From an uncultured Sulfurovum sp. (GTDB taxonomy: Bacteria > Campylobacterota > Campylobacteria > Campylobacterales > Sulfurovaceae): 64,000 bases of DNA. Of the stretch, positions 3,000-32,362 are shown piece after piece (the first letter of the stretch is position 1; every line of letters begins with the position of its first letter). The DNA lies in the NCBI GenBank assembly GCA_902727855.1, contig CACVAS010000107.1:124001-188000 (forward strand). Reading direction: 5' to 3'. The notes below the pieces were generated by a model, which was not told where the DNA came from, searched no databases, and worked only from the letters and a program-made list of their open reading frames with translations. Made by a program: the position numbers and the translations under genes.

Positions 3000-4007
3000 A
3001 TGAGTATTGACTTTAAAGCAGAAATAAATAGAATGAAAAAAGAGCTGGACGTTACAGTTGTGGCACACTATTATCAACGTGATGAAGTATTTGAAATGGC
3101 TGATATCGTGGGTGATAGCTTGGAGCTTGCACGTAGATGTCAAGCCAATGACAACAAGTGGGTAGTGTTTTGCGGTGTGGGGTTTATGGGGCAGTCTGTT
3201 AAGATTATAGACCCCCAGAAGCGTGTACTTATGCCAAAAATTGCTTGTTGTGCGATGGCGAGAATGATGGATGGCTCCTATTTTGAAGAATCTGTGCAGT
3301 ACATGGTTGATAATGGTGTATCTAAAGATGACATTTTACCTATTACTTACATTAATTCTGATGCTTCAGTGAAAGCAAAAGTAGGAGAGATGGGTGGACT
3401 TGTATGTACTTCTTCAAATGCTTTTAAAATTATAGAAAAAGGGTTAGAGAGTGGTAAAAAAATACTTTTTGTACCAGACAGATGTTTAGGACAAAATTTT
3501 GCTATACAGATGGGTTTAAAGTCTTGTGTGATTGGTGTGGAAGAAGATGGTAAAGCATGTGACCCAAAAGAAGCAGATATTATCTGTTTTAATGGTTTTT
3601 GTTCTGTGCACCAGCTTTTTACTGTAGATGACATAGAGTTTTATCGTAACAAGTTTCCAGATATTAAAATAGCTGTACACCCTGAGTGTGATCCTTCAGT
3701 TGTCGCTGCTGCTGACTTTTCAGGTTCTACTTCTCAACTTATAAAGTATGTCAATGACCTAGACCCAGAACAAAAAGTAGCTATTGGTACAGAGTACAAC
3801 CTTGTAAACCGTATGAGAAAAGGTAACACATATGTACTCTCGTCAACGAAGCCAGAGTGTCCTACTATGAATGAAACAACTTTAGAGGATTTATATAACA
3901 CATTAAAGTCCATAGAAGATGATAAACCTATGAATGAGATAGTTGTTGACCCTGAGGTTAGAAAGTACGCAAACATGGCGTTAGAACGTATGTTGGCGTT
4001 AAAATAA
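3000..4007 (+). CDS. nadA: Quinolinate synthase A
   Basis: A 335-residue cytoplasmic iron-sulfur enzyme that condenses iminoaspartate with dihydroxyacetone phosphate to give quinolinate in NAD synthesis. Family signatures are VVAHYYQRDEVFEMADIVGD at the N-terminus, FCGVGFMGQS, GFCSVHQLF, AVHPECDPSV and the late KPECPTMNETTLEDLYNTL. The cysteines in the first, second and last of these fit the [4Fe-4S] ligands of NadA. A GAAGGA ribosome-binding site precedes the ATG, and two -10-like boxes (TAAAAT near 2968 and TACAAT at 2977) lie just upstream. The stop overlaps the start of nadC by one base. Confidence 0.97.
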   Translation: MSIDFKAEINRMKKELDVTVVAHYYQRDEVFEMADIVGDSLELARRCQANDNKWVVFCGVGFMGQSVKIIDPQKRVLMPKIACCAMARMMDGSYFEESVQYMVDNGVSKDDILPITYINSDASVKAKVGEMGGLVCTSSNAFKIIEKGLESGKKILFVPDRCLGQNFAIQMGLKSCVIGVEEDGKACDPKEADIICFNGFCSVHQLFTVDDIEFYRNKFPDIKIAVHPECDPSVVAAADFSGSTSQLIKYVNDLDPEQKVAIGTEYNLVNRMRKGNTYVLSSTKPECPTMNETTLEDLYNTLKSIEDDKPMNEIVVDPEVRKYANMALERMLALK

Positions 4008-4825
4008 TGCTAAAAGAACAATTTTTACAAGCACTTGTAAGGGAAGATATAGGACGTGGGGACTTATTTTCTCGCATTTCTGTAGGTAAATATATACGTG
4101 CTTACATAATTGCAAAAAGTGATGGAGTGTTCGCAGGGCAAGAGTATGTGGAAACATTAGCCAAAATGTATGACCTTTCTCTGTCATGGAAAGTAAATGA
4201 TGGTGAGTCGTTTAGCAAGGGCGAGAAACTGCTTTTCATCTCTGGTGATTCTAAAACGATACTTTCATTAGAGCGTTCTATTTTAGATATGGTGCTTCAT
4301 GCAAGTTCTATTGCAACTTTGACTTCTAAGTATGTGAGTGCTATTGCAAATACAGGTGTCAAGTTGTTAGACACGAGAAAGACAAGACCACTTTTACGCG
4401 AATTTGAAAAGTATGCAGTACGTTGTGGGGGTGGCATTAACCATCGTATGGGATTAGATGACTGTCTAATGCTGAAAGATACACATTTAAAAACGATAGA
4501 TAACTTGGAAGGATTCATGGTAAAAGTACGCCAAAAAATACCTTTTACCTCTAAAGTAGAGATAGAGTGTGAGAGTTTAGAGATGGCACAAAATGCCATG
4601 AAGGCAGGAGCAGATATTGTGATGTGTGATAACATGAGCTTAGAAGAAACCAAAGAAGTTGTCGCTTACAGAAATGCAAACTATACACATATTTTATTGG
4701 AAGCTTCAGGGAATGTCACTTTAGATACAATAGAGCAGATAGCGACGACGGGTGTGGATGCCATTAGTTCAGGTGCTGTAATACATCAAGCCAATTGGAT
4801 TGACTTGTCCATGAAAGTTGAATAG
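4007..4825 (+). CDS. nadC: Nicotinate-nucleotide pyrophosphorylase (carboxylating)
   Basis: A 272-residue enzyme that converts quinolinate and PRPP to nicotinate mononucleotide, the step after NadA. Seen are LLDTRKTRPLLREFEKYAVR (phosphate and quinolinate binding), CGGGINHRMGLDD, LKDTH, the VEIECESLEMA strand and the C-terminal GVDAISSGA barrel motif. Length is normal. The ATG overlaps the nadA stop (TAATG), and the stop overlaps the GTG of the next gene, so nadA, nadC and the DHH gene form a tightly coupled operon. Confidence 0.97.
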   Translation: MLKEQFLQALVREDIGRGDLFSRISVGKYIRAYIIAKSDGVFAGQEYVETLAKMYDLSLSWKVNDGESFSKGEKLLFISGDSKTILSLERSILDMVLHASSIATLTSKYVSAIANTGVKLLDTRKTRPLLREFEKYAVRCGGGINHRMGLDDCLMLKDTHLKTIDNLEGFMVKVRQKIPFTSKVEIECESLEMAQNAMKAGADIVMCDNMSLEETKEVVAYRNANYTHILLEASGNVTLDTIEQIATTGVDAISSGAVIHQANWIDLSMKVE

Positions 4826-5823
4826 TGAGAAAAAGTAGCGTAACTCAAGCACCTACAACAAAACAGCTTCTTCCTCATAAGAAAGTAGAAGAAAAAATAG
4901 AAAATGCAACATCTGTCACGATACTTTCACATGTAAACCCTGATGCTGATGCTTTAGGTACTGCCTTGGGTATCTATGTTTTACTCAAGTACAATGCTAA
5001 TGTAAAAGTAGAAGTAGTGAATGCCTCTAACATATTACCAAAGTACCTAGATTTTTTACCATATTTTCATAAAATAAAAAAACATATAAACTATGCAGAT
5101 TCACTTATTATTTCTTGTGATTGTGCATCTGTTGATAGACTAGGTTTTGAACTTAAGCATAGAGATATTATTAATATCGATCATCATGAGAGTAATACAA
5201 TGTTTGGGAACATTAATGTTGTATTAGATAAGTATGCTTCTTCATCACACGTTGCATTTAGGTTGTTTGAAAAAATATACACAATAAATAAAGATGCCGC
5301 TACATGTTTTTATGCAGCGTTACTTTCAGATACTAGACATTTTACAACAAGGTCAGTGGATTATGAGGTGTTTAGTGTTGCAAAGGTATTAGTAGAAAAT
5401 GGCGCAAAGCCTGATGAGATTGCGTCAAAGATGACACAAAGAAAATCATTGGCATCTATGCGAATATTAGAAAAGGCATTGGCATCTTTATCTTTTTACA
5501 ATGATGCAAAAGTAGCAGTTTTAACAGTCAGCCAAGAAGAAATTTTACAAACAGGTGCTAATGTACCTGATATGGAAGGTATTGTAGAATTTGCAGCTGC
5601 TTTAGTGACAGTAGAAATGGCTATTTTTGCGATGGAGTTAAAAGATAGTGTACGTATTTCTTTAAGAAGTAAAGGTATAGATGTATCAAAAATTGCTAAG
5701 AGTTTAGGTGGAGGTGGTCACAGGTTAGCAGCTGGATTTAGTATAAATGGTGGTAACCTGGAAGAGAGTATAGAAACAACTCTGGCTAAGGTTAAAATGT
5801 TAGAATCTTTGTCAAATTTATAA
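4825..5823 (+). CDS. DHH-family phosphoesterase (NrnA-like)
   Basis: A 332-residue DHH/DHHA1 protein. The DHH domain (about 20-175) has SHVNPDADALGTALGIY, CDCAS, NIDHHESN and LLSDTRHFTTR, which hold the metal-binding aspartates and histidines. The DHHA1 domain near the end has GGGGHRLAAGF. This is the layout of bifunctional nanoRNase/pAp phosphatase (NrnA), which degrades 2-5 nt RNAs and recycles 3'-phosphoadenosine 5'-phosphate; which substrates it uses is an inference. The start is a GTG overlapping the nadC stop (TAGTG). Confidence 0.85.
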   Translation: MRKSSVTQAPTTKQLLPHKKVEEKIENATSVTILSHVNPDADALGTALGIYVLLKYNANVKVEVVNASNILPKYLDFLPYFHKIKKHINYADSLIISCDCASVDRLGFELKHRDIINIDHHESNTMFGNINVVLDKYASSSHVAFRLFEKIYTINKDAATCFYAALLSDTRHFTTRSVDYEVFSVAKVLVENGAKPDEIASKMTQRKSLASMRILEKALASLSFYNDAKVAVLTVSQEEILQTGANVPDMEGIVEFAAALVTVEMAIFAMELKDSVRISLRSKGIDVSKIAKSLGGGGHRLAAGFSINGGNLEESIETTLAKVKMLESLSNL

Positions 5824-5840
5824 AGTAAGTTAGGAAAAAA

Positions 5841-7223
5841 ATGCGAAATAGAAGTAGTAGTAATAGTGGATTTAAAATTATAATAGGGATACTCTTAGTA
5901 GGCATAATAGTTGGTGCGGGGTATGTTTATACCGCACCTGAGTTTGAAAGAGAATCTCCTATTATTGAGAGCCAGAAAAATATTTTTTGGAATAGAACTG
6001 ACCCTTTAAAGCTTAAGTTCACAGATAATTTTGCATTGAAGCATTACGAACTCATTTTAAGTGATGGTGTAAAACGTATCATGATTGGTAGTGGTGATTT
6101 TGAAAAAACAGTAAAAGAACAAACTTTATTGGTACATTATCCTAAGAGCAATACACTCAATAAAAAAGCAAAAAAACTACAGTTGAGTGTCAGCGTAGAT
6201 GATAATAGTATGTGGAATTTTTTTCAAGGTAATAAAACGCTCAAAACTATTGATATACAAATAGATCATAAACGTCCTACTATTAATATACTTGCTAACT
6301 CGTATAGTATTACACAAGGTGGATCTGCGCTAGTTGTATTTTACGCAGAAGATAAAAATTTAGACACCTTACATGTTGAGGTTGGAGATAAAGAATTTAA
6401 GGTACAGCCATACAAAAAAGAGGGATATTTTGCGGCACTTATTGCATGGCCGTTTAATAAAAAAGATTTTGATGCAAAAATTGTTGCTACAGATAAGGCT
6501 AATAATAAACGTATTACAGAGATACCTTTCTATCTGAAAAATCGTTCTTATAAGGTATCATGGATTAGGGTTAAAGATAAGTTCTTAGATGGAAAAATTA
6601 CTGATCTTGCATCTGCAGATCCAGAGTATGCAGATATTACAGATAAAATAGAGAAGTTTGTTGCAGTGAATGAAAAAATGCGTTTAAAAAATGAAGAAAA
6701 AATACATATATTAAGTAGTGGAATCTCGTCAAAGATATTAGACAAGTGGAAAATTAAAAAGTTCTATCCATTAAAGAATGGTGCAAAAGTGGCTAGTTAT
6801 GGTGATGAACGACATTATTATTATGGAACTAAAGATAATGAAGTGTCGACTTCATATCATGTGGGGTATGATCTAGCAAGTACTAAAATGGCAGTCATTA
6901 AAACATCAAATGCAGGAAAAGTAGTGTTTTCAAATGAAAATGGTATTTACGGAAATATGCCTATGATTGATCACGGTTTAGGATTGTATTCATTGTATGG
7001 ACATTGTTCTCAACTTTTGGTAAAAGAGGGCGATGAAGTAGTTGCTGGACAAGCCATAGCCAAAACAGGCATATCTGGGCTTGCACTCGGAGATCATTTA
7101 CACTTTGGCATTTTAGTTCAGGGTATTGAAGTAAGACCTGTTGAATGGTTTGATAGTGAGTGGATACGTAAAAATATAGATATAGTATTCAGTAAAGCAG
7201 ATAAGATTATTTTTCCATCATAA
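5841..7223 (+). CDS. Membrane-anchored M23 (LytM) peptidoglycan endopeptidase
   Basis: A 460-residue protein with an N-terminal transmembrane anchor (residues about 10-32) and a long periplasmic region of beta-rich sequence. The C-terminal M23 domain (about 320-430) has YHVGYDLAS with the first zinc ligands, YSLYGHCSQL and the closing GDHLHFGI motif (HxH). All zinc and catalytic residues seem present, so it should be an active peptidoglycan cross-link hydrolase, the class that sets cell shape in Helicobacter and Campylobacter. It starts 17 bases after the DHH gene and precedes lpxC, as in C. jejuni. Confidence 0.9.
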   Translation: MRNRSSSNSGFKIIIGILLVGIIVGAGYVYTAPEFERESPIIESQKNIFWNRTDPLKLKFTDNFALKHYELILSDGVKRIMIGSGDFEKTVKEQTLLVHYPKSNTLNKKAKKLQLSVSVDDNSMWNFFQGNKTLKTIDIQIDHKRPTINILANSYSITQGGSALVVFYAEDKNLDTLHVEVGDKEFKVQPYKKEGYFAALIAWPFNKKDFDAKIVATDKANNKRITEIPFYLKNRSYKVSWIRVKDKFLDGKITDLASADPEYADITDKIEKFVAVNEKMRLKNEEKIHILSSGISSKILDKWKIKKFYPLKNGAKVASYGDERHYYYGTKDNEVSTSYHVGYDLASTKMAVIKTSNAGKVVFSNENGIYGNMPMIDHGLGLYSLYGHCSQLLVKEGDEVVAGQAIAKTGISGLALGDHLHFGILVQGIEVRPVEWFDSEWIRKNIDIVFSKADKIIFPS

Positions 7224-22470: not shown

Positions 22471-23736
22471 ATGATAGATTTAAAATACATACAGAAAAAT
22501 TTTGATGAAGCAAGTGTAAAGCTTCAAAAAAAAGGTGTTGATACTCAAACACTTACAGAACTTGAAAAGCGTTTTAGTGAACTCAAAGAGGCAAATGCAA
22601 CGTTAGAGTCTATGAAAGCGGAGCAAAACAGTATGTCTAAACTCTTTGGTCAGTACAAAAGAGAAGGTAAGGATATTGTAGAGCTAAAAGCCAAAGTAGA
22701 TGCCAATAAAGAAGCAATGGTACCCATGCAAGAGAAGGCAAGGGAAGCAGAAGAAGCACTCAATGCTTTAGCTCTGTCTATGCCTAACTTCCCAGATGAC
22801 TCTGTACCAGCGGGTGCTGATGAAGAGGATAATGTAGAGTTGCGTAGGATTTTAGAACCTAAAACATTTTCTTTCACACCAAAAGAGCATTGGGAACTCT
22901 CGGAAATCAATGGATGGATAGACTTTGAACGTGGTGTAAAACTTGCAAAATCTCGTTTTGCTATTTTAAAAGGTGAAGCTTCTAGGTTAGAGCGTGCACT
23001 CATTAATTTCTTTTTAGACATGAACCGTGATCAAGGTTTTGTAGAGTACTCTGTACCGTTTATCAATAATGCTACGATGCTACAAGGTACAGGACAACTT
23101 CCAAAGTTTGGAGATGATTTGTTTAAGATAGATGATGAAGATTTATATCTCATCCCTACAGCAGAAGTGCCGTTAACCAATATGTATCATGATGAGATAC
23201 TCTCTGAGAAAGATTTGCCACTACTTATGACAGGGTATACACCATGTTTTAGAAAAGAAGCAGGTTCAGCAGGTCGTGATACAAGAGGTATTATAAGGCA
23301 ACACCAGTTTAACAAGGTAGAGATGGTTGCCATAGCCCATCCAGAAAAATCTCAAGAAGTTTTTGAAATGATGGTTGATAATGCATCCAATATACTTACA
23401 CAGTTGGGTCTTCCTCATAGAGTCGTAGAGTTATGTGGAGGTGACTTAGGTTTCTCCGCAGCCACAACCATAGACTTAGAAGTATGGTTACCTGGACAAA
23501 ACCAATACCGCGAAATCTCTTCTATTTCAAATACTCGAGACTTCCAAGCAAGACGCGCAAAGATTCGTTTTAAAGCAGAGGCTTCAGACGATAAAAAGAG
23601 TAAGAAAAATAGATTGGTACATACTCTTAACGGTTCTGCATTGGCTGTGGGACGTACTATTGTGGCTATTATGGAGAATTATCAAAATGAAGATGGAAGT
23701 ATTGAGATTCCTGAGGTGTTAAAAGCATACATGTAG
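22471..23736 (+). CDS. serS: Seryl-tRNA synthetase
   Basis: A 421-residue class II synthetase. The N-terminal antiparallel coiled-coil arm (about 25-105) binds tRNA-Ser. The catalytic core has the [15 protein letters not shown] segment, motif 2 ([20 protein letters not shown]) and motif 3 ([19 protein letters not shown]). Length and domain order are normal. It ends the left housekeeping block, just before the DGR. Confidence 0.98.
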
Positions 23737-23895: not shown

Positions 23896-26800
23896 ATGTT
23901 CTATCTCAAAAAACGACTACTGTCTCTCTTCCTTGTGGCTTCTATGTCGCTTACGTCACTTCAAGCATCATCAGAAGAGCATAATCTTACTGACGAACAA
24001 TTGCATGCGTTCATGGGTATCATCACTAACTTTATACTAAGCTCTCCTACTCAAAAAGAACTGGTTTTTGAAAAGATAGAAGCGTATGCACAAAGTGATG
24101 GTAACACCAGTACTCCTAACATAAACGACTATACCCACGCACAAGTAACAGGTGTAGACAACAGAACCATTACGCCACTCAATGAGGCTATAGCTTTACT
24201 GGATACCACAGAGGTAGACAGTACAGCTAAGATACAAGAGATACTAGACACCATACTCTCCACCCCTCCAGCCCTTACCCTTGTGGGGGATGCAAACTTC
24301 ACACTAGAAGTCAACACACCTTACACAGAGCTAGGTGCCACAGCCATAGACGTACTAGATGGAAATCTTACATCTAGCATCGTCATAAGTGGAAGTGTAG
24401 ACATGCAGACTTTAGGGAGACAAACACTCACCTACAGTGTTACAGATATGGACAACAACACTGCCACAGTAGAGAGAAATGTAAGCGTAGTAGACAGCAC
24501 CCCACCAGTCATAGCCTTAACTGGGGCTAACCCACAAACCATAGAAGTACACACCCCTTACACAGAACTAGGTGCTACAGCCACAGATAACTATGATACC
24601 AACCTCACAGGGAATATAGTCATCAACATTACAGACACAAATATCAATGTTGTAGGGACTTACAATGTGTACTATGATGTAAATGATACCTCTGGTAATG
24701 AAGCACTACAAGTGACCAGAACCGTCCATGTAGCAGACACCACCCCACCCACATTCACCTCAGAGGACAACACCACAGTAGCAGAAAACCAAACAGATGC
24801 CATTACCCTGCAAGCCACAGATGCGAGTGCTATTACCTACAGCATTAGTGGAGGAGACAGTGCAGACTTTGATGTCAATGCTACTACCGGAGTAGTTACC
24901 TTTAAAGTAGCATCTGACTTTGAGACAAAAGACCTCTACACATTTACCGCAACCGCTACAGATGTGTATGGAAATGAGAGTACGCAAGAGGTGACGGTAA
25001 ACATTTCAAACCTTAATGATAATCCTCCTATGCTGAATACATCTCATTATAATGTTGTATGGGGTTCTCATCTTATAAGTGTTTCTGGTAGTGGTTTAAC
25101 TACTTTTGCCATTGATGATATGAATGGTGATGATAGCTTAGATTTTGTAGTAGGAAATGATGGTGATAATAATATAATATTGTTAGATAATGATGGAAAT
25201 ACAACTTTTTCAGAAAGTTTTGCCACATCAAATATAGAATCCGAATCTGTGTTTATTATAGATATGGATTTAGATGGAGACAAAGATATCGTCTCTGCAG
25301 AAGATGATTCAGATTCAGTAAGATGGTATGAAAATGATGGGAATCAAACATTTACAGAACATGTTATCTCAAGCAATGCAGATGGTGCATTTTCTGTTAT
25401 GGTTGCAGATGTAGACAATGATGGAGACATGGATGTGCTCTCTGCATCACAAAATGATAATAAGATAGCATGGTACGAGAATGATGGGAATCAAACATTT
25501 ACAGAACATGTTATCTCAAGCAATGCAAGCGGTGCCATTTCTGTGCAGGTTGCAGATGTAGACAGTGATGGAGACATGGATGTGCTCTCTGCATCACAAA
25601 ATGATAATAAGATAGCATGGTACGAGAATGATGGGAATCAAACATTTACAGAACATGTTATCTCAAGCAATGCAAGCGGTGCCATTTCTGTGCAGGTTGC
25701 AGATGTAGACAGTGATGGAGATATGGATGTGCTCTCTGCATCACAATATGATGATAAGATAGCATGGTACGAGAATGATGGTAATCAAACATTTACAGAA
25801 CATGTTATCTCAAGCAATGCAGATGGTGCATATACCGTGAATATAGAAGACATAGACAATGATGGAGATATAGATGTACTTTCTACTTCTGTAAATGATG
25901 ACAAAATTGCATGGTACGAGAATGATGGTAACCAAACATTTACTGAGCACATTGTATCTACCTCTCTAATAAACCCACATAATATATTTGCAAGAGATAT
26001 AAATAACAATGGTAAACAAAATATTGTATCTGCTTCCTATAATTCAAATGATATAGCATGGTATGAGCAAAATCTAGGGTTGTTTGTAATAGAGAACAAT
26101 GAAACAGTAGGTACCCTAGTAGCCACAGACCAAGATGGTGATATGTTAACCTATAGTCTATCTGGAGAGGATGCAGCACTCTTTAACATAGATAGCCATA
26201 CGGGAGCATTAACCTTTATAGGTGCACCAAACTTTGAAAATCCAATAGACAGTAATGGAGATAATGATTACAATATCATCGTATCAGTCACTGATGGAAA
26301 TGCTACAGTGGAGGAAGAACTCATTATTCGAATAGAAGATGAAGCGGATGTTGTACCTATACTCAACAACGCTACGTTCACTGTAATAGAAAATGCACTA
26401 GACAATCACTACATAGGTAGAGTAAGCATAAGCAACTCTGGTGATACTCCTATCACAAGTTATAGACTAGAGGGTAGTACAGACTTTGACATTGATAGTA
26501 GTGGTAACATACGTGTGGCATCTGGAGCAGATATAGACTATGAAACGACAATATCTTATGCACTAACCGTATATGCTTCTAACGATGCAGGGGAGAGTAA
26601 TGAAGCCAATGTGACTATAAATGTGTTGGATATTACTGTACCTGTACTGGTTACGACACCACTTTACAGTAGTGACAGTAATTTCACCTTTGAAGTACTA
26701 GGTGATGATGCAGACATTATGTTTCTTGATGGGGTAGATACTACATATATGTTTGATGGAACTACAGTAGAACATACCTTACAAAAAGATGAGAACAATA

Positions 26801-28278
26801 CTGTAACAATACAAGCAAACAGTATCCTGAATGAAGTAGCCTCTTTTACACTGCTTGAGACCCTAGATATCAATTTAACAGATCAAAGTATTACTCCTGT
26901 TATAAACTCTATAAATAGAAGTAATAGCTACGCAAAGTATTATAGTTTTAAAACAGACAGAGAACATAATCTTACCATAGATATGATGGCAAGTTTTGAT
27001 ACCTATCTATTCTTGTTAGATGCAAATAAAACACAACTCTATAGTAATGATGATGGTGGAGAAGGTGTCAATTCTAGATTTACTGACCTTATATTGCCAG
27101 CAGGTAAGTACTTTATAGAAGCTACGACATTTGGTAGTCACACTACTGGACTATTTAATTTGAATATCAAAGATAATACAGAACAAAATGACACAACTCC
27201 ACCAGAAGAACCTACTCTAACAGCAGAAGCTCCAACTGAAACCAGTGACACCAACACAACAGTAGAGGTCAACGGAGAAGTAGGTGCTACGGTGTATGTC
27301 AATGGTCAGGCAGTGGGTGTCATAGGGGCAGACGGTAAAGTACTTGTGACTCTCCCTTTAGTATTGGGAGACAATACTTTTAGTGTAACCCTTAAAGATG
27401 AGGCAGGTAATGAGAGTAGTGTATTGAGTATTGAAGTGACGATGTTAGACACTACGCCACCACTCTTCACCTCAGATGACAATGCCACAGTAGCAGAAAA
27501 CCAAATAGATGCCATTACCCTACAAGCCACAGATGCAAGTACTATTACCTACAGCATCAGTGGAGGAGACAGTGCAGACTTTGATGTCAATGCTACTACC
27601 GGAGTAGTCACCTTTAAAGTAGCACCTGACTTTGAGACAAAAGACCTCTACACATTTACAGCCACTGCTACGGATGCCTATGGGAATGAGGGTACGCAAG
27701 AGGTGGCGGTAAGCATTTTAGATGTGGTGGAAACTGTAGGGCTTAAGAAGACAGGACAGACTACCGTTTATGTGGCTAATGACGATGGTGACTACCAAAA
27801 AGGTGTCACACCAAGCTACACTAGAGATGACAATAAGAGCATAGTCACAGACCACATCACAGGACTACAGTGGGCAGATGATGTCAACGTCAGTAGCTCT
27901 AGCATGAGAAAACAGTGGCTCACACCAACCAACTACGACATCTGTAGAGGGCAAAACGGACAGACACAAGACACAAATAAATGTACAGATACTTTTGGAG
28001 ATACAGCAACTACGTATTGTACCAATCTTACTTTGGGTGGGTATAACGATTGGCGATTACCAAATATAGAAGAGCTCGTATTTATCACAGACAAAGGTAG
28101 GGTAAGTCCAGCCATTAACCCTGTATTTGAAAATGTTAGCACTAACAATTATTGGTCGTCTACCACGCACGCTTCTAACACGAGTAGCGCGTGGGTTGTC
28201 AACTTCTACTACGGCTATGACTATGGCAATATCAAGACCGCTAGCCTCTATGTTCGGTGCGTAAGAGACGGACAGTAA
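23896..28278 (+). CDS. DGR target 1: large modular secreted protein with C-terminal variable DUF1566/C-type-lectin-like domain
   Basis: A 1460-residue protein. Domain order by eye: Sec signal peptide (to about residue 25, SLQA-SS); two DUF5011-like Ig modules (about 125-285); a cadherin-like module (about 285-375); FG-GAP/VCBS-like 49-residue repeats with calcium-type DxDxDGD loops (about 400-720); further cadherin-like modules (about 725-920); a pre-peptidase C-terminal (PPC)-like domain (about 1015-1095); an Ig-like module; a near copy of the first cadherin module (about 1190-1275); and a DUF1566 domain (about 1330-1460) with NDWRLPNIEEL. Residues about 1414-1460 are variable region 1, matching the template at 28444-28590. 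The modular stalk suggests an exported adhesin or receptor that displays the variable ligand-binding face. Its ligand is unknown. Confidence 0.88.
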   Translation: MFYLKKRLLSLFLVASMSLTSLQASSEEHNLTDEQLHAFMGIITNFILSSPTQKELVFEKIEAYAQSDGNTSTPNINDYTHAQVTGVDNRTITPLNEAIALLDTTEVDSTAKIQEILDTILSTPPALTLVGDANFTLEVNTPYTELGATAIDVLDGNLTSSIVISGSVDMQTLGRQTLTYSVTDMDNNTATVERNVSVVDSTPPVIALTGANPQTIEVHTPYTELGATATDNYDTNLTGNIVINITDTNINVVGTYNVYYDVNDTSGNEALQVTRTVHVADTTPPTFTSEDNTTVAENQTDAITLQATDASAITYSISGGDSADFDVNATTGVVTFKVASDFETKDLYTFTATATDVYGNESTQEVTVNISNLNDNPPMLNTSHYNVVWGSHLISVSGSGLTTFAIDDMNGDDSLDFVVGNDGDNNIILLDNDGNTTFSESFATSNIESESVFIIDMDLDGDKDIVSAEDDSDSVRWYENDGNQTFTEHVISSNADGAFSVMVADVDNDGDMDVLSASQNDNKIAWYENDGNQTFTEHVISSNASGAISVQVADVDSDGDMDVLSASQNDNKIAWYENDGNQTFTEHVISSNASGAISVQVADVDSDGDMDVLSASQYDDKIAWYENDGNQTFTEHVISSNADGAYTVNIEDIDNDGDIDVLSTSVNDDKIAWYENDGNQTFTEHIVSTSLINPHNIFARDINNNGKQNIVSASYNSNDIAWYEQNLGLFVIENNETVGTLVATDQDGDMLTYSLSGEDAALFNIDSHTGALTFIGAPNFENPIDSNGDNDYNIIVSVTDGNATVEEELIIRIEDEADVVPILNNATFTVIENALDNHYIGRVSISNSGDTPITSYRLEGSTDFDIDSSGNIRVASGADIDYETTISYALTVYASNDAGESNEANVTINVLDITVPVLVTTPLYSSDSNFTFEVLGDDADIMFLDGVDTTYMFDGTTVEHTLQKDENNTVTIQANSILNEVASFTLLETLDINLTDQSITPVINSINRSNSYAKYYSFKTDREHNLTIDMMASFDTYLFLLDANKTQLYSNDDGGEGVNSRFTDLILPAGKYFIEATTFGSHTTGLFNLNIKDNTEQNDTTPPEEPTLTAEAPTETSDTNTTVEVNGEVGATVYVNGQAVGVIGADGKVLVTLPLVLGDNTFSVTLKDEAGNESSVLSIEVTMLDTTPPLFTSDDNATVAENQIDAITLQATDASTITYSISGGDSADFDVNATTGVVTFKVAPDFETKDLYTFTATATDAYGNEGTQEVAVSILDVVETVGLKKTGQTTVYVANDDGDYQKGVTPSYTRDDNKSIVTDHITGLQWADDVNVSSSSMRKQWLTPTNYDICRGQNGQTQDTNKCTDTFGDTATTYCTNLTLGGYNDWRLPNIEELVFITDKGRVSPAINPVFENVSTNNYWSSTTHASNTSSAWVVNFYYGYDYGNIKTASLYVRCVRDGQ
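25324..26061 (+). repeat. Five tandem 147-bp repeats inside DGR target 1
   Basis: The TGGTA(C/T)GA segment recurs at 25324, 25471, 25618, 25765, 25912 and, more diverged, 26059, always 147 bases apart. The units starting 25471 and 25618 are nearly identical. Each encodes 49 residues with WYENDGNQTFTEHV and a DxDxDGDxDV loop, an FG-GAP/VCBS-like blade. The array could expand or contract by recombination without a frameshift. Confidence 0.9.
28132..28278 (+). repeat. DGR variable region 1 (VR1)
   Basis: 147 bases aligned without gaps to the template at a fixed offset of 312. There are 13 substitutions at template adenines, spread over 10 AAY codons, plus one G to C at 28273. The 3' part from TATGTTCGG to the stop is otherwise identical and would be the IMH region. 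It encodes the last 49 residues of target 1, with changes such as Asn to His, Ser, Tyr, Gly, Ile, Ala and Leu. It ends exactly at the stop codon. Confidence 0.95.
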
Positions 28279-28443
28279 CTTGACCTTTGGTTTTAGGGTG
28301 TTGTGTACGGTTACGCCAGAGTTTGCAGACCAACATCTGCAAAGCGTGCGACATTTACTGTGCGGCCCTTTTGCCAAAGTGCATAAAGATACGGCTGTGG
28401 TTATTGAAAGCTCTCTAATCATAGCCAATAAAATAAAGGGTTT
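28279..28443 (+). other. Spacer between VR1 and TR
   Basis: No gene. It contains a perfect 8-bp hairpin, TTTGCAGA / TCTGCAAA with a 6-base loop, at 28322-28343, starting 44 bases after VR1. The base composition is more GC-rich than the surroundings. Transcription of the template RNA probably begins in or before this spacer, but I see no clear promoter. Confidence 0.5.
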
Positions 28444-28590
28444 AATGTTAGCACTAACAATTATTGGTCGTCTACCACGAACGCTTCTAACACGAGTAAC
28501 GCGTGGGTTGTCAACTTCAACAACGGCAATGACAATAACAATAACAAGACCAATAGCAACTATGTTCGGTGCGTAAGAGACGGAGAGTAA
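28444..28590 (+). repeat. DGR template repeat (TR)
   Basis: An invariant donor of about 147 bases with 15 AAC/AAT codons at the positions that vary in the targets. Read in the target frame it would be an Asn-rich version of the lectin-like end, terminating in GAG-TAA where both VRs have CAG-TAA. AAY codons cannot mutate to stops when the first two bases change, a known design feature of DGR templates. It ends 22 bases before the avd start, so the avd leader may form part of the structured template RNA. Confidence 0.95.
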
Positions 28591-28612
28591 ATATATAAAA
28601 GAGGAGAAAAAC

Positions 28613-28960
28613 ATGGGTAGTGAAAATCTTCCTATTTTTAAGTCAGCTTTAGAGTTAGCTGTCTATATGGAGCAGATAGTCAAAGGTTTTGAAAAGTACC
28701 ATAAGTATACCATGGGAGTAGACTTGCGTGAAAAGAGTAAAGATATACTCTACCTCATAAACAGAGCAAACCTAAGCGACAATAAAAAACTAGCCATCAC
28801 CAACTTGCGTGATGGCTGTGAAGACATGAAGATGCTTATACAGCTAAGTAAAGAACTAGAAGCATTTAAGTCATTTAAGCAGTTTGAGTATAGTTCTATG
28901 CTTGTAGTGGGTGTGTGTAAGCAAGCCCAAGGATGGCTAGGTAAGCAACGCGTTGTGTAG
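28613..28960 (+). CDS. avd: Avd-like four-helix-bundle protein of the DGR
   Basis: A 115-residue, mostly helical protein with basic patches (MGVDLREKSKDILYLINRAN, SDNKKLAITNLRDGCEDMK, SKELEAFKSFKQFEY). It resembles the accessory variability determinant / S23-type four-helix family. In BPP-1, Avd forms a pentamer that binds the RT and template RNA and is needed for mutagenic retrohoming. It has a GAGGAG ribosome-binding site and lies between TR and RT, a typical position. The assignment rests on size, helical character and context. Confidence 0.85.
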   Translation: MGSENLPIFKSALELAVYMEQIVKGFEKYHKYTMGVDLREKSKDILYLINRANLSDNKKLAITNLRDGCEDMKMLIQLSKELEAFKSFKQFEYSSMLVVGVCKQAQGWLGKQRVV

Positions 28961-28980
28961 GGGGTGATTTCTATCACACC
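28958..28980. repeat. GTAGGG-type intergenic palindrome (copy 2)
   Basis: It begins GTAGGGG at the avd stop codon and contains a GTGAT / ATCAC stem with a TTCT loop, ending CACC. The outer frame matches the palindromes at 30742 and 37818. It may act as a terminator or processing site between avd and the RT, but no T-run follows. Confidence 0.45.
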
Positions 28981-29033
28981 AATAAAAACATGAATGAGAT
29001 AAAAGGTTGTTTTGTAATATATATACAAATAGT

Positions 29034-29077
29034 GCGATGGCATATCCCAAGGGTATTTCCGTTGGAATCGCCCCTAC
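29034..29077. repeat. Larger GTAGGG-type palindrome in the RT leader (copy 3)
   Basis: GCGAT at 29034-29038 pairs with ATCGC at 29067-29071, with a smaller ATATCCC / GGGTAT foldback inside, followed by CCCTAC. It lies 15 bases before the RT start codon, overlapping the region upstream of its AAAGGAG ribosome-binding site. It could be a repeat element or structured leader RNA affecting RT translation. Confidence 0.4.
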
Positions 29078-29092
29078 AACAAAGGAGAAATA

Positions 29093-30229
29093 ATGTTCAC
29101 ATTTCAAAACATTTACAAAGCATACAAGCAATGTCGTAAACATAAAACAAATACTATAAATGCCTTGCAATTTGAACAAAACCTTTTAGAAAACCTATGG
29201 GATTTGACCCATGCTTTGCAACAGAAAACCTACAAGATAGACACATCTATCTGTTTTTTAACACACTCACCAAAACTTAGAGAGGTTTTTGCAGCAGATT
29301 TTCGTGACCGTGTGGTACATCACTTGGTGGTGGGAGAGTTAGAAGCATTGTATGAGAGAAAGTTCATTTATGATGTATACAATAACCGTAAAAATAAAGG
29401 CACACACAGTGCAGTCAAACGTGCAAAAAAGTATATGTTGAGTCAAAAAGAAGGCTACTATTTGCAGTTGGATATTAAGGGATTTTTTTATAATTTAGAT
29501 AAGCATATACTTTTCAAAACACTCTTAGATGACATAGAACCAAGTAGACTAAAAGACAAAAGTAATTTACTGTGGTTACTGCATAAAATTATTTTCCATG
29601 ACCCTACAAAAGATTATGTGTTTAAGGGTAACAAAAAGAACTTAGACAAATTGCCAGACCACAAGACGCTTTTTAAGATACCCAAAACAAAAGGACTCCC
29701 CATAGGTAACCTTACAAGTCAGTTTTTTGCCAATGTGTATATGAGCCGTTTTGACCATTTTGTCAAAAGAGAGCTTAAAATAAAAGGCTACATTCGCTAC
29801 GTAGATGACTTTGTACTTTTTGACCCCTCTAAAAAGAAGCTTGAAAAGTGTAAAGAGGAGATAGGGCTATACCTTAAAGAGCATTTAGGTTTACGCTTAA
29901 GAGAAGACAGTAGACTGAGGAAATCTACACAAGGTTTAGACTTTTTAGGCTACATTATACGACCACACTACATACTTGTACGTAAAAGGGTGGTACATAA
30001 CTACAAAGCCAAAAAAGCCAAATACCTAGATGACTACGAAAAACAAAAAGGAAATATGAGCCTTGTAGAGATAAAACAGTTTTTATCTGTACAAGCTTCA
30101 TTTGCTTCACACTGTAAGCATGTGCCCGACCGCAGGGACAAATGCCCTTGGGGTGCGAATAGCTTTAATTTAACACACAAAGTAGGAAGATTAGATGAAA
30201 CAAATCCTTTTGATTATAGCAGGGCTTAG
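29093..30229 (+). CDS. DGR reverse transcriptase
   Basis: A 378-residue RT. Palm motifs seen are YLQLDIKGFF (catalytic Asp about 127), GLPIGNLTSQ (about 201-210) and IRYVDDFVLF (YVDD about 236-239), then GLDFLGYIIRP and a thumb-like basic helix. The motif IGxxxSQ in place of QGxxxSP is the hallmark of the DGR clade and is linked to its low fidelity at adenines. There is no maturase, endonuclease or msr-msd-like structure, which argues against group II intron or retron. The 3' end overlaps target 2 by 35 bases. Confidence 0.95.
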   Translation: MFTFQNIYKAYKQCRKHKTNTINALQFEQNLLENLWDLTHALQQKTYKIDTSICFLTHSPKLREVFAADFRDRVVHHLVVGELEALYERKFIYDVYNNRKNKGTHSAVKRAKKYMLSQKEGYYLQLDIKGFFYNLDKHILFKTLLDDIEPSRLKDKSNLLWLLHKIIFHDPTKDYVFKGNKKNLDKLPDHKTLFKIPKTKGLPIGNLTSQFFANVYMSRFDHFVKRELKIKGYIRYVDDFVLFDPSKKKLEKCKEEIGLYLKEHLGLRLREDSRLRKSTQGLDFLGYIIRPHYILVRKRVVHNYKAKKAKYLDDYEKQKGNMSLVEIKQFLSVQASFASHCKHVPDRRDKCPWGANSFNLTHKVGRLDETNPFDYSRA

Positions 30230-30617
30230 TAGCCTTTTGATGGCTGATTTTAGTAGAGATAATGGTACACAAATAGTGACAGATAGCAGCACAAACTTGC
30301 AATGGCAAGACGATGTAGTAGGAAGTACTATGAACTGGGAGTCTGCCATAAGTCACTGTGAGGCACTGACCCTTAATGGGCATGACGATTGGCGACTGCC
30401 TAACTTTAACGAACTCTACTCTATAGCAGATAGAAGCACATACAACCCTGCTATGGATCCTGCATTTTCAGCTGTTAGCACTAGCTATTATTGGTCGTCT
30501 ACCACGGACGCTTCTCACACGAGTGTCGCGTGGGTTGTCGACTTCTACCTCGGCTATGACGATAACGTTTACAAGACCGGTAGCTGCTATGTTCGGTGCG
30601 TAAGAGACGGACAGTAA
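30195..30617 (+). CDS. DGR target 2: small secreted DUF1566 variable protein
   Basis: A 140-residue protein with a signal peptide (MKQILLIIAGLSSLLMA) followed by a single DUF1566/C-type-lectin-like domain: DSSTNLQWQDD, HDDWRLPNFNEL, then the variable YYWSSTTDAS...YVRCVRDGQ end. It is a stripped-down relative of the last domain of target 1. Variable region 2 covers about residues 94-140. It starts inside the RT gene with an AGGAAG ribosome-binding site, so it is probably made from the RT message. Whether it stays periplasmic or is secreted is not visible. Confidence 0.88.
   Translation: MKQILLIIAGLSSLLMADFSRDNGTQIVTDSSTNLQWQDDVVGSTMNWESAISHCEALTLNGHDDWRLPNFNELYSIADRSTYNPAMDPAFSAVSTSYYWSSTTDASHTSVAWVVDFYLGYDDNVYKTGSCYVRCVRDGQ
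30473..30617 (+). repeat. DGR variable region 2 (VR2)
   Basis: 145 bases aligned gap-free to TR 28446-28590. There are 19 substitutions at template adenines in 14 of 15 AAY codons, plus the same single G to C (30612) as VR1. Unlike VR1, the first two AAY codons are also mutated (Asn-Asn to Ser-Tyr). Shared constant codons lie between the variable ones. Confidence 0.95.
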
Positions 30618-30633
30618 TCTGCGGATGCAGATT
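30616..30633 (+). other. DGR-type hairpin at the end of VR2
   Basis: AATCTGC / GCAGATT form a perfect 7-bp stem with a GGAT tetraloop, starting in the VR2 stop codon. In BPP-1 a hairpin or cruciform with a 4-base loop just downstream of the IMH is needed for efficient target recognition; this fits that role. It may also act in termination. Confidence 0.7.
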
Positions 30634-30768: not shown

Positions 30769-32325
30769 TTAAACCGTCTTAGAAGAATCTACATAACGTG
30801 ACTTCAATTTCCCTTCCATACTCAAATAGCTATTTAATGCACCGATGTAAGCTCTCGCAGAGGCTAACATAGTGTCTATGTTAAGTCCATGTCCTATGAT
30901 GGCAGGGTCATCGTTGAATGAGACCTTGACTGTCACATTGGCTAAAGCATCTTTTCCCTCTGAGACAGACTTTACTTTATAGTCATCTAATCTTCCTACT
31001 TGTCCTGTAATACGGTCAATGGTTTTAAATATTGCATCAATGGTACCTTCACCTATACTAGCATCAATAATTTCATTGTCGTCTTTTTTAATGCTCACTG
31101 CTGCACTTGGTACACCATTGGAGCAGTCCATTAACTGCAATGAGATTAACTCATACACTTGTGTGGCTTTGGTCATTTCATTGGTGACTAAAGCTCTTAA
31201 GTCATCATCATAAATCTCTTTTTTTCTGTCAGCTAAAATTTTAAATCGTTCAAATGAAGCATTTAAAGCATCATCATCTAAGGTAAATCCTAATTTACTT
31301 AACTTGTCTTTAAACGCAGCTCTTCCAGAGTGTTTACCTAACACTAAGGTATCGTCCATATCTAAGCCAATATCTGCGGGGCTTATAATTTCGTAGGTTT
31401 CTTTATTTTTTAACATACCATCTTGGTGTATACCTGACTCATGAGCAAATGCATTTTTACCCACGATAGCTTTATTAGGTTGAGGTTCTATACCTGTAAT
31501 GTTGGCTATCAATCTACTTGATGGGTATATCTCTTTGGTGTTGATATTGGTCGTATAGTCAGAAAATACATCTGAACGTGTTTTTAATGCCATCACTATT
31601 TCTTCAAGCGCTGCATTTCCTGCACGCTCACCTAATCCATTGATGGTACATTCTACCTGTCTTGCACCATTGACGACAGCTTCTAAAGAGTTGGCAACAC
31701 CCAAGCCTAAGTCATTGTGGTTATGTACGGAGATGATGGCTCTATTTTTTGTGTATTCGCTCATTTCTTTTACCATAGCACCTATTTCAAAAGGAAGTCT
31801 AAACCCAACAGTATCTGGCAAGTTTATGGTACTAGCACCCGCTTCTATGACAGCGTCAGAGATCTCTTTCATAAAGCCTATGTCTGAACGTCCTGCATCT
31901 TCACAAGAAAACTCTACATCATTTACAAAGGTACGTGCATATTCTACGGCACGAACGGCACGTTTTATGACTTCATCGGGTGCCATTTTTAACTTATGTT
32001 CCATGTGTATGCTTGAAGTAGCTATAAATGTATGTATACGCTTCATATTGGCTTTGGCTACAGCTTCTCCTGCTGCTTTTACATCTGCATCTATGGCTCT
32101 TGCTAATGAACATACTGTGGAGTTAGTGACACGCTGGGCTATTTTATCTATAGCGTCAAAGTCTCCTGGACTAGCTGCTGCAAAACCTGCTTCAATGATG
32201 TCTACTCCCAAACGTTCTAATTGTGCAGCAATTTGGATTTTCTCTTCGGTGTTCATGGAAGCCCCTGGGCTCTGCTCACCATCTCTTAATGTTGTGTCAA
32301 ATATTTTAATGGTTTCTGTACTCAT
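30769..32325 (-). CDS. leuA: 2-isopropylmalate synthase
   Basis: A protein of about 518 residues that condenses acetyl-CoA with 2-oxoisovalerate, the first step of leucine synthesis. It has [14 protein letters not shown] (metal and substrate binding), the barrel motif [19 protein letters not shown] with HNH metal ligands, [17 protein letters not shown], and a C-terminal LeuA regulatory domain (about 385-515), the site of leucine feedback. I chose the ATG at 32325, which has AAGG upstream, over the frame start at 32355, which overlaps the attenuator terminator. Expression is probably controlled by the leader at 32452-32526. Confidence 0.97.
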
Positions 32326-32342
32326 TGTAATAACCTTATTGT

Positions 32343-32362
32343 TATAAAAAGCCATTTGGCTT
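32343..32362 (-). terminator. Attenuator terminator before leuA
   Basis: On the minus strand AAGCC-AAAT-GGCTT is followed at once by TTTAT, a short intrinsic terminator, 18 bases before the leuA ATG. A competing foldback (ATAGTTT-T-AAACTAT) lies between it and the leader peptide. The 5-bp stem is short, so strength is uncertain. Confidence 0.65.

Follow-up and report, generated by a model that had tools for sequence, protein, structure and literature searches.

The recognition of template RNA by diversity-generating retroelements (DGRs), and the start and stop of their cDNA synthesis, are known mainly from one phage element. In the Bordetella phage BPP-1 DGR, organized as mtd-avd-TR-brt, the avd gene abuts the template repeat (TR), and a 144-nt spacer separates the TR from the reverse transcriptase (RT) gene brt. 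This spacer, 3´ of the TR, folds, recruits bRT–Avd and primes the cDNA, whose synthesis is stopped by a motif in the 3´ end of avd (PMC12875486). Efficient homing in BPP-1 needs a downstream hairpin (PMC3240598). DUF1566 ranks with the most frequent target domains of DGRs (PMC4159848, PMC6642488), and a single TR with two DUF1566 targets has already been described (PMC6642488). The Vibrio cholerae 1311-69 element, a DGR with one TR, two variable repeats (VRs) and DUF1566/Lcl_C targets, is like the locus analysed here in this respect.

The window is a stretch of 64,000 nucleotides from contig C107 (CACVAS010000107.1), part of a 3.1-Mb draft genome with an estimated completeness of 100 and contamination of 9%. 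The host genus includes a genome named Sulfurovum, and no second genome of the host species was found. Between serS (22471–23736) and leuA (30769–32355, minus strand) lies a complete DGR cassette, ordered on the plus strand as target 1 with VR1, a non-coding stretch with the TR, avd, the RT gene and target 2 with VR2. The initial annotation had placed all DGR components on one strand, and every part was found on the plus strand, at the positions given below. It had also seen no adjacent phage genes, in agreement with surroundings composed of housekeeping genes (serS, leuA, ftsH, prmA and groEL). Five relatives have an empty site, with serS directly beside leuA, so the cassette was inserted as a single block.

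The description of a complete DGR with one template and two targets withstood every test that could be run, and the cassette is, with very high confidence, a genuine DGR. The class was rightly called known. One TR with two adenine-directed VRs occurs in about 20 Campylobacterota cassettes, and no DGR of the host lineage was found in the searched open-access papers. The element shares with BPP-1 the RT, Avd, the adenine-directed TR-to-VR transfer, an IMH/IMH* difference and a variable protein with a C-type-lectin fold. It differs from BPP-1 in having a folded RNA 5´ of the TR, a TR that precedes avd, two targets and a chromosomal location. As a DGR, the window element is ordinary; its new features are the leader RNA, the moved leader–TR module and the scrambled template of a sister element.

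The RT (29093–30229, plus strand; 378 aa; RVT_1, 60.8 bits) carries YVDD and the DGR-type IGNLTSQ ([I/L/V]GN..SQ replacing QG..SP), and its closest solved structure is the BPP-1 DGR reverse transcriptase (8ub7, E 9e-31), in keeping with the DGR type indicated by the two motifs. The accessory variability determinant, Avd (28613–28960, plus strand; 115 aa), matches PHROG 3206, 'Avd protein of DGR' (E 1e-14); its matches to Pfam bAvd and NCBIfam DivGenRetAVD fall below the cut-offs of those models, and a PDB sequence search with Avd gave no match. RTs about 50–71% identical occur in Campylobacterota MAGs. Since viral RT relatives in the collections searched are at most 44% identical, the RT clade appears cellular, and a viral origin was rejected (phage records reach at most 40%). 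A few records titled with other phyla (L045 as Patescibacteria, L054 as Gracilibacteria) have RTs within the Campylobacterota RT clade, which reflects either misbinning or transfer, the two being indistinguishable.

The TR (28447–28590) has 144 nt, with 51 adenines and AAY codons at the diversified sites, while VR1 (28135–28278) and VR2 (30474–30617) form the 3´ ends of the target 1 and target 2 ORFs; all three lie on the plus strand. Differences from the TR fall at template adenines in 13 of 14 cases for VR1 (hypergeometric p 5e-6) and in 19 of 20 for VR2 (p 3e-9), reproducing exactly the counts that had been made by hand alignment. The sole non-A difference, common to both VRs, is G28585>C at the IMH/IMH* position: the TR reads GGAGAG, VR1 reads GGACAG with its C at 28273, and VR2 has its C at 30612 (plus strand). 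Across the clade this site is GGAC in most VRs and GGAG or GGAT in TRs, with the exception of the VR1 of L059 and that of the sister element, which have the TR-type base, and of L050, L052 and L058, which end differently.

Compared with each other, VR1 and VR2 differ at 19 sites, all of them template adenines. At template non-A sites they are identical (93/93), whereas their upstream flanks agree at only 33 of 60 positions (55%), a contrast that points to recent retrohoming. Diverged domains that are identical exactly at template non-A sites are what repeated overwriting from one TR would predict. Just 3´ of VR2 there is a 7-bp inverted repeat with the loop GGAT (AATCTGC/GCAGATT; 30616–30633, plus strand), but no such hairpin was detected downstream of VR1. 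In many loci of the clade (e.g. L046 5171–5200), both targets have a recurrent T-rich motif, TTTGA..TTTGA, after the VR stop codon; it occupies the place of the BPP-1 hairpin and is absent from VR2 of the sister element.

Target 1 (23896–28278, plus strand; 1460 aa) comprises a signal peptide, bacterial Ig-like and cadherin domains, six FG-GAP repeats and a C-terminal Lcl_C (DUF1566) domain with VR1. Target 2 (30195–30617, plus strand; 140 aa) consists of a signal peptide and an Lcl_C domain with VR2; both signal peptides were judged by inspection. The AlphaFold model of target 2, built with 33 sequences (pLDDT 81.5), adopts a C-type-lectin-like fold. Its best PDB match is the C-terminal domain of Legionella Lcl (8q4e; Z 13.3, 121 residues, 21% identity), which has the same fold, and the next structural matches are many C-type-lectin-like domains; a PDB sequence search with target 2 gave no match.

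The initial annotation had proposed that a cellular surface protein is being diversified. The cellular setting holds, but two targets are involved rather than one protein, and a surface location is suggested by the signal peptides and the Ig, cadherin and FG-GAP domains, no surface anchor having been found on either target. Given how often DUF1566 has been reported in DGR targets, the standard inference is that both proteins probably serve for variable binding, either on the cell surface or extracellularly. The start of target 2 lies within the 3´ end of the RT gene, in a 35-nt overlap (30195–30229), and the RT tail NPFDY with the same overlap recurs in several relatives, which suggests translational coupling. 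The N-terminal ~370 aa of target 1 (window 23896–25014) are 87% identical to those encoded by the sister element (L020 7621–9291), against 67–69% for the RTs, a contrast suggesting that cassettes exchange target modules.

On contigs of sufficient length, the usual cassette of the relatives comprises a large target, avd, the TR, the RT and a small target. For REARRANGEMENT, the arrangement is avd-leader-TR-RT in the intact relatives examined and leader-TR-avd-RT in the window. The gene order of the window is also found in L045, the sister of the window element (DGR-A) in the RT tree (support 85/87). Set against the order in the relatives, that of the window and L045 indicates that leader and TR move as a unit. 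The L045 locus (2496–2853) is decayed, a single deletion joining the 5´ part of the TR to about codon 47 of avd. In L160 (G083; 3265–5621), avd, the leader, an A-rich TR and both targets persist, but all of the RT except its C-terminal part has been lost.

Only 22 nt separate the TR from avd in the window, and a structured 3´ spacer of the BPP-1 type between TR and RT is absent. In most relatives the gap between TR and RT is no longer than about 30 nt, and a longer one with intergenic palindromes is seen in a few Sulfurovum-type loci, including the sister element. A functional 3´ RNA hidden in the 5´ coding region of the RT was considered and rejected, as folding predictions for 16 sequences gave no pairs in the initial 158 nt of the RT ORF. 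With no fold predicted in this region, the only conserved fold found is the one located 5´ of the TR.

This structured leader (28312–28445, plus strand) is formed by a P1 hairpin and a long-range P2 helix, and scores 100 bits with the covariance model R1, of which it is a training sequence. P1 (28314–28350) has closing pairs at 28314–28316/28348–28350 and an 8-bp hairpin at 28322–28329/28336–28343. The 5´ strand of P2, GGCCCTTT (28364–28371), pairs with the 3´ strand, AAAGGGTT (28435–28442), with 99.3% of the cells paired across 19 loci; all of these elements are on the plus strand. The distance from the end of P2 to the TR is 4 nt in the window and at most a few nt across the aligned loci. 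Over the whole leader alignment of 19 loci, 96.9% of the cells are paired (71.4% after shuffling), two-sided changes occupy 92 cells (26 after shuffling), and the covariation score is 0.733, in comparison with 0.208 for shuffled alignments and at most 0.158 when the structure is slid by 1–3 columns. These counts are biased in favour of the structure, which was derived from the alignment being scored, but they exceed the controls by a wide margin.

No Rfam family matched the leader at gathering scores, and nothing credible appeared at E up to 5. Model R1 retrieves leaders in whole genomes without using the RT, including those of L160, L161, L162 and L164, cassettes whose RT is largely missing, fragmentary or not on the contig. 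Among more distant DGRs, those of Rhodanobacter, of a gammaproteobacterium and of viral contigs gave weak matches, and BPP-1 gave none. Two further groups, mostly from viral contigs, have a P2-like helix of their own beside the TR with compensatory changes, in small sets (10 and 7 sequences) whose covariation was scored without a shuffling control. A conserved structure upstream of the TR is not described in the searched literature, which was limited to open-access papers, so that an earlier description is possible; the searched papers on DGRs with DUF1566/Lcl_C targets likewise gave no description of a leader RNA.

The same draft genome harbours a second DGR, here called DGR-B, on contig C147 (L020, G000:C147:28000-46000). 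Both contigs probably come from one organism, because serS (C107) and ychF (C147) are each single copy with the same best relative, and the GC content of the contigs agrees. DGR-B has the same parts as the window element, in the order avd-TR-RT typical of the relatives, and the two RTs are 67–69% identical. A recent duplication was rejected, since the RT tree groups DGR-B with L049 and L046 and the window element with L045. The RT, Avd and leader of DGR-B are intact, but its template, TR-B (L020 about 7079–6945, minus strand), is adenine-depleted and resembles a VR. It contains 20 adenines and 3 AAY codons per 100 nt, against 33–45 and 10–16 in 15 intact TRs; VRs range from 17 to 36 adenines and from 0 to 9 AAY codons. 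TR-B departs from the TRs of L046 and L049, the loci closest to it, mainly at the adenines of those TRs (19/30 and 21/29), whereas intact TRs show few differences from L046 at its adenines (2/14, 2/20 and 3/27). TR-B is also a poor template for its own VRs, as adenines account for only 8/22, 6/23 and 8/28 of the differences.

The most economical interpretation is that TR-B itself underwent adenine-mutagenic retrohoming or that a VR replaced it. VR1 of DGR-B and a copy on contig C36 have the TR-type GGAG at the IMH site, and the erosion fits a loss of IMH-type protection of the template. The C36 copy, a VR-like sequence of the DGR-B family with GGAG present, is the end of a 113-aa ORF (L022 8513–8854, minus strand); the ORF, with no signal peptide evident as called, is probably a remote third target of DGR-B. 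TR-B is the only clear eroded template among the loci compared. Erosion following the loss of the RT was rejected as a cause, as L160 is mostly without RT and yet has an A-rich TR.

Taken together, the window very probably holds a recently active DGR of a Sulfurovum-like bacterium. The TR would be transcribed as an RNA beginning with the folded leader, the RT and Avd would copy it with errors opposite adenines, and the mutated cDNA would replace the matching 3´ ends of the two target genes by mutagenic retrohoming, with C at the IMH position marking a sequence as recipient. The predicted outcome is that two secreted proteins, one large and repeat-containing and one small, have residues of their C-type-lectin-like domains randomized. 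The lack of a BPP-1-like hairpin downstream of VR1, the exceptions at the IMH site and the contamination estimated for the draft genome count against this explanation. Further Lcl_C genes in the host genome would suit a different origin of the repeats, as ordinary gene-family duplicates homogenised by gene conversion, but this is extremely improbable given that 32 of the 34 differences are at template adenines, that an intact DGR-type RT and Avd lie between the repeats, and that the geometry recurs in about 20 loci. It is also rather improbable that the element worked until lately and is now silent. Related cassettes are often broken, as indicated by the RT mostly lost in L160, the partial deletion of TR and avd in L045 and the eroded template of DGR-B; in the window, however, all ORFs are intact, the TR is A-rich and the 93 non-A VR sites show no drift.

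As to the leader, copying has to terminate at the TR boundary, and the closure of P2 only 4 nt upstream of it suggests a stop for cDNA synthesis. A role as a handle that loads RT/Avd, as such a stop, or as both may be held with roughly even confidence. As a structured 5´ region upstream of ORFs, the leader could instead be an attenuator or ligand-sensing RNA that regulates avd–RT expression and does not act with RT/Avd on the template. This seems unlikely, because the leader immediately precedes the TR both in the window, where avd comes next, and in all intact relatives, where the RT does, with P2 ending a few nt from the TR in the aligned loci. For DGR-B, a plausible though somewhat doubtful alternative to erosion by retrohoming is that its template was replaced by recombination with a VR, or that TR-B is in fact a third VR, the true TR being absent from the draft. 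Some derived bases common to TR-B and VR1-B, and the draft state of the genome, speak for it; against it, TR-B occupies the canonical place behind an intact leader, and no other A-rich copy for DGR-B was found in the assembly.

A broader proposal, slightly more doubtful than the role of the leader itself, can be advanced tentatively. In a large class of DGRs, the window element and several phage DGRs included, the functional fold of the template RNA may lie 5´ and not 3´ of the TR, with the P1/P2 leader loading RT/Avd and stopping the cDNA at the TR boundary; the module would be mobile relative to avd, and once the IMH/IMH* difference is lost an element could rewrite and so inactivate the template it depends on, DGR-B being an example. 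If true, a leader that covaries in cellular and phage DGRs alike would constitute a second kind of DGR RNA. Experiments and DGR-based diversification tools would gain from it an exact site to mutate. DGR-B is a natural test of whether the template is protected by the IMH/IMH* difference.

Finally, several cassettes contain additional sequences. A transposase-like ORF lies between the TR and the RT in L053 (about 5300–5950), and L062 (about 2230–2560) has a four-helix-bundle-like ORF ahead of its truncated TR; both ORFs were identified by eye. Palindromic intergenic repeats of the GGGGCGAT...ATCGCACC type are present in the avd–RT gap of the window (28961–29092) and in the TR–RT gaps of L020 and L062. 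Such repeats recur in the corresponding gaps of several Sulfurovum-type cassettes and resemble small mobile elements.
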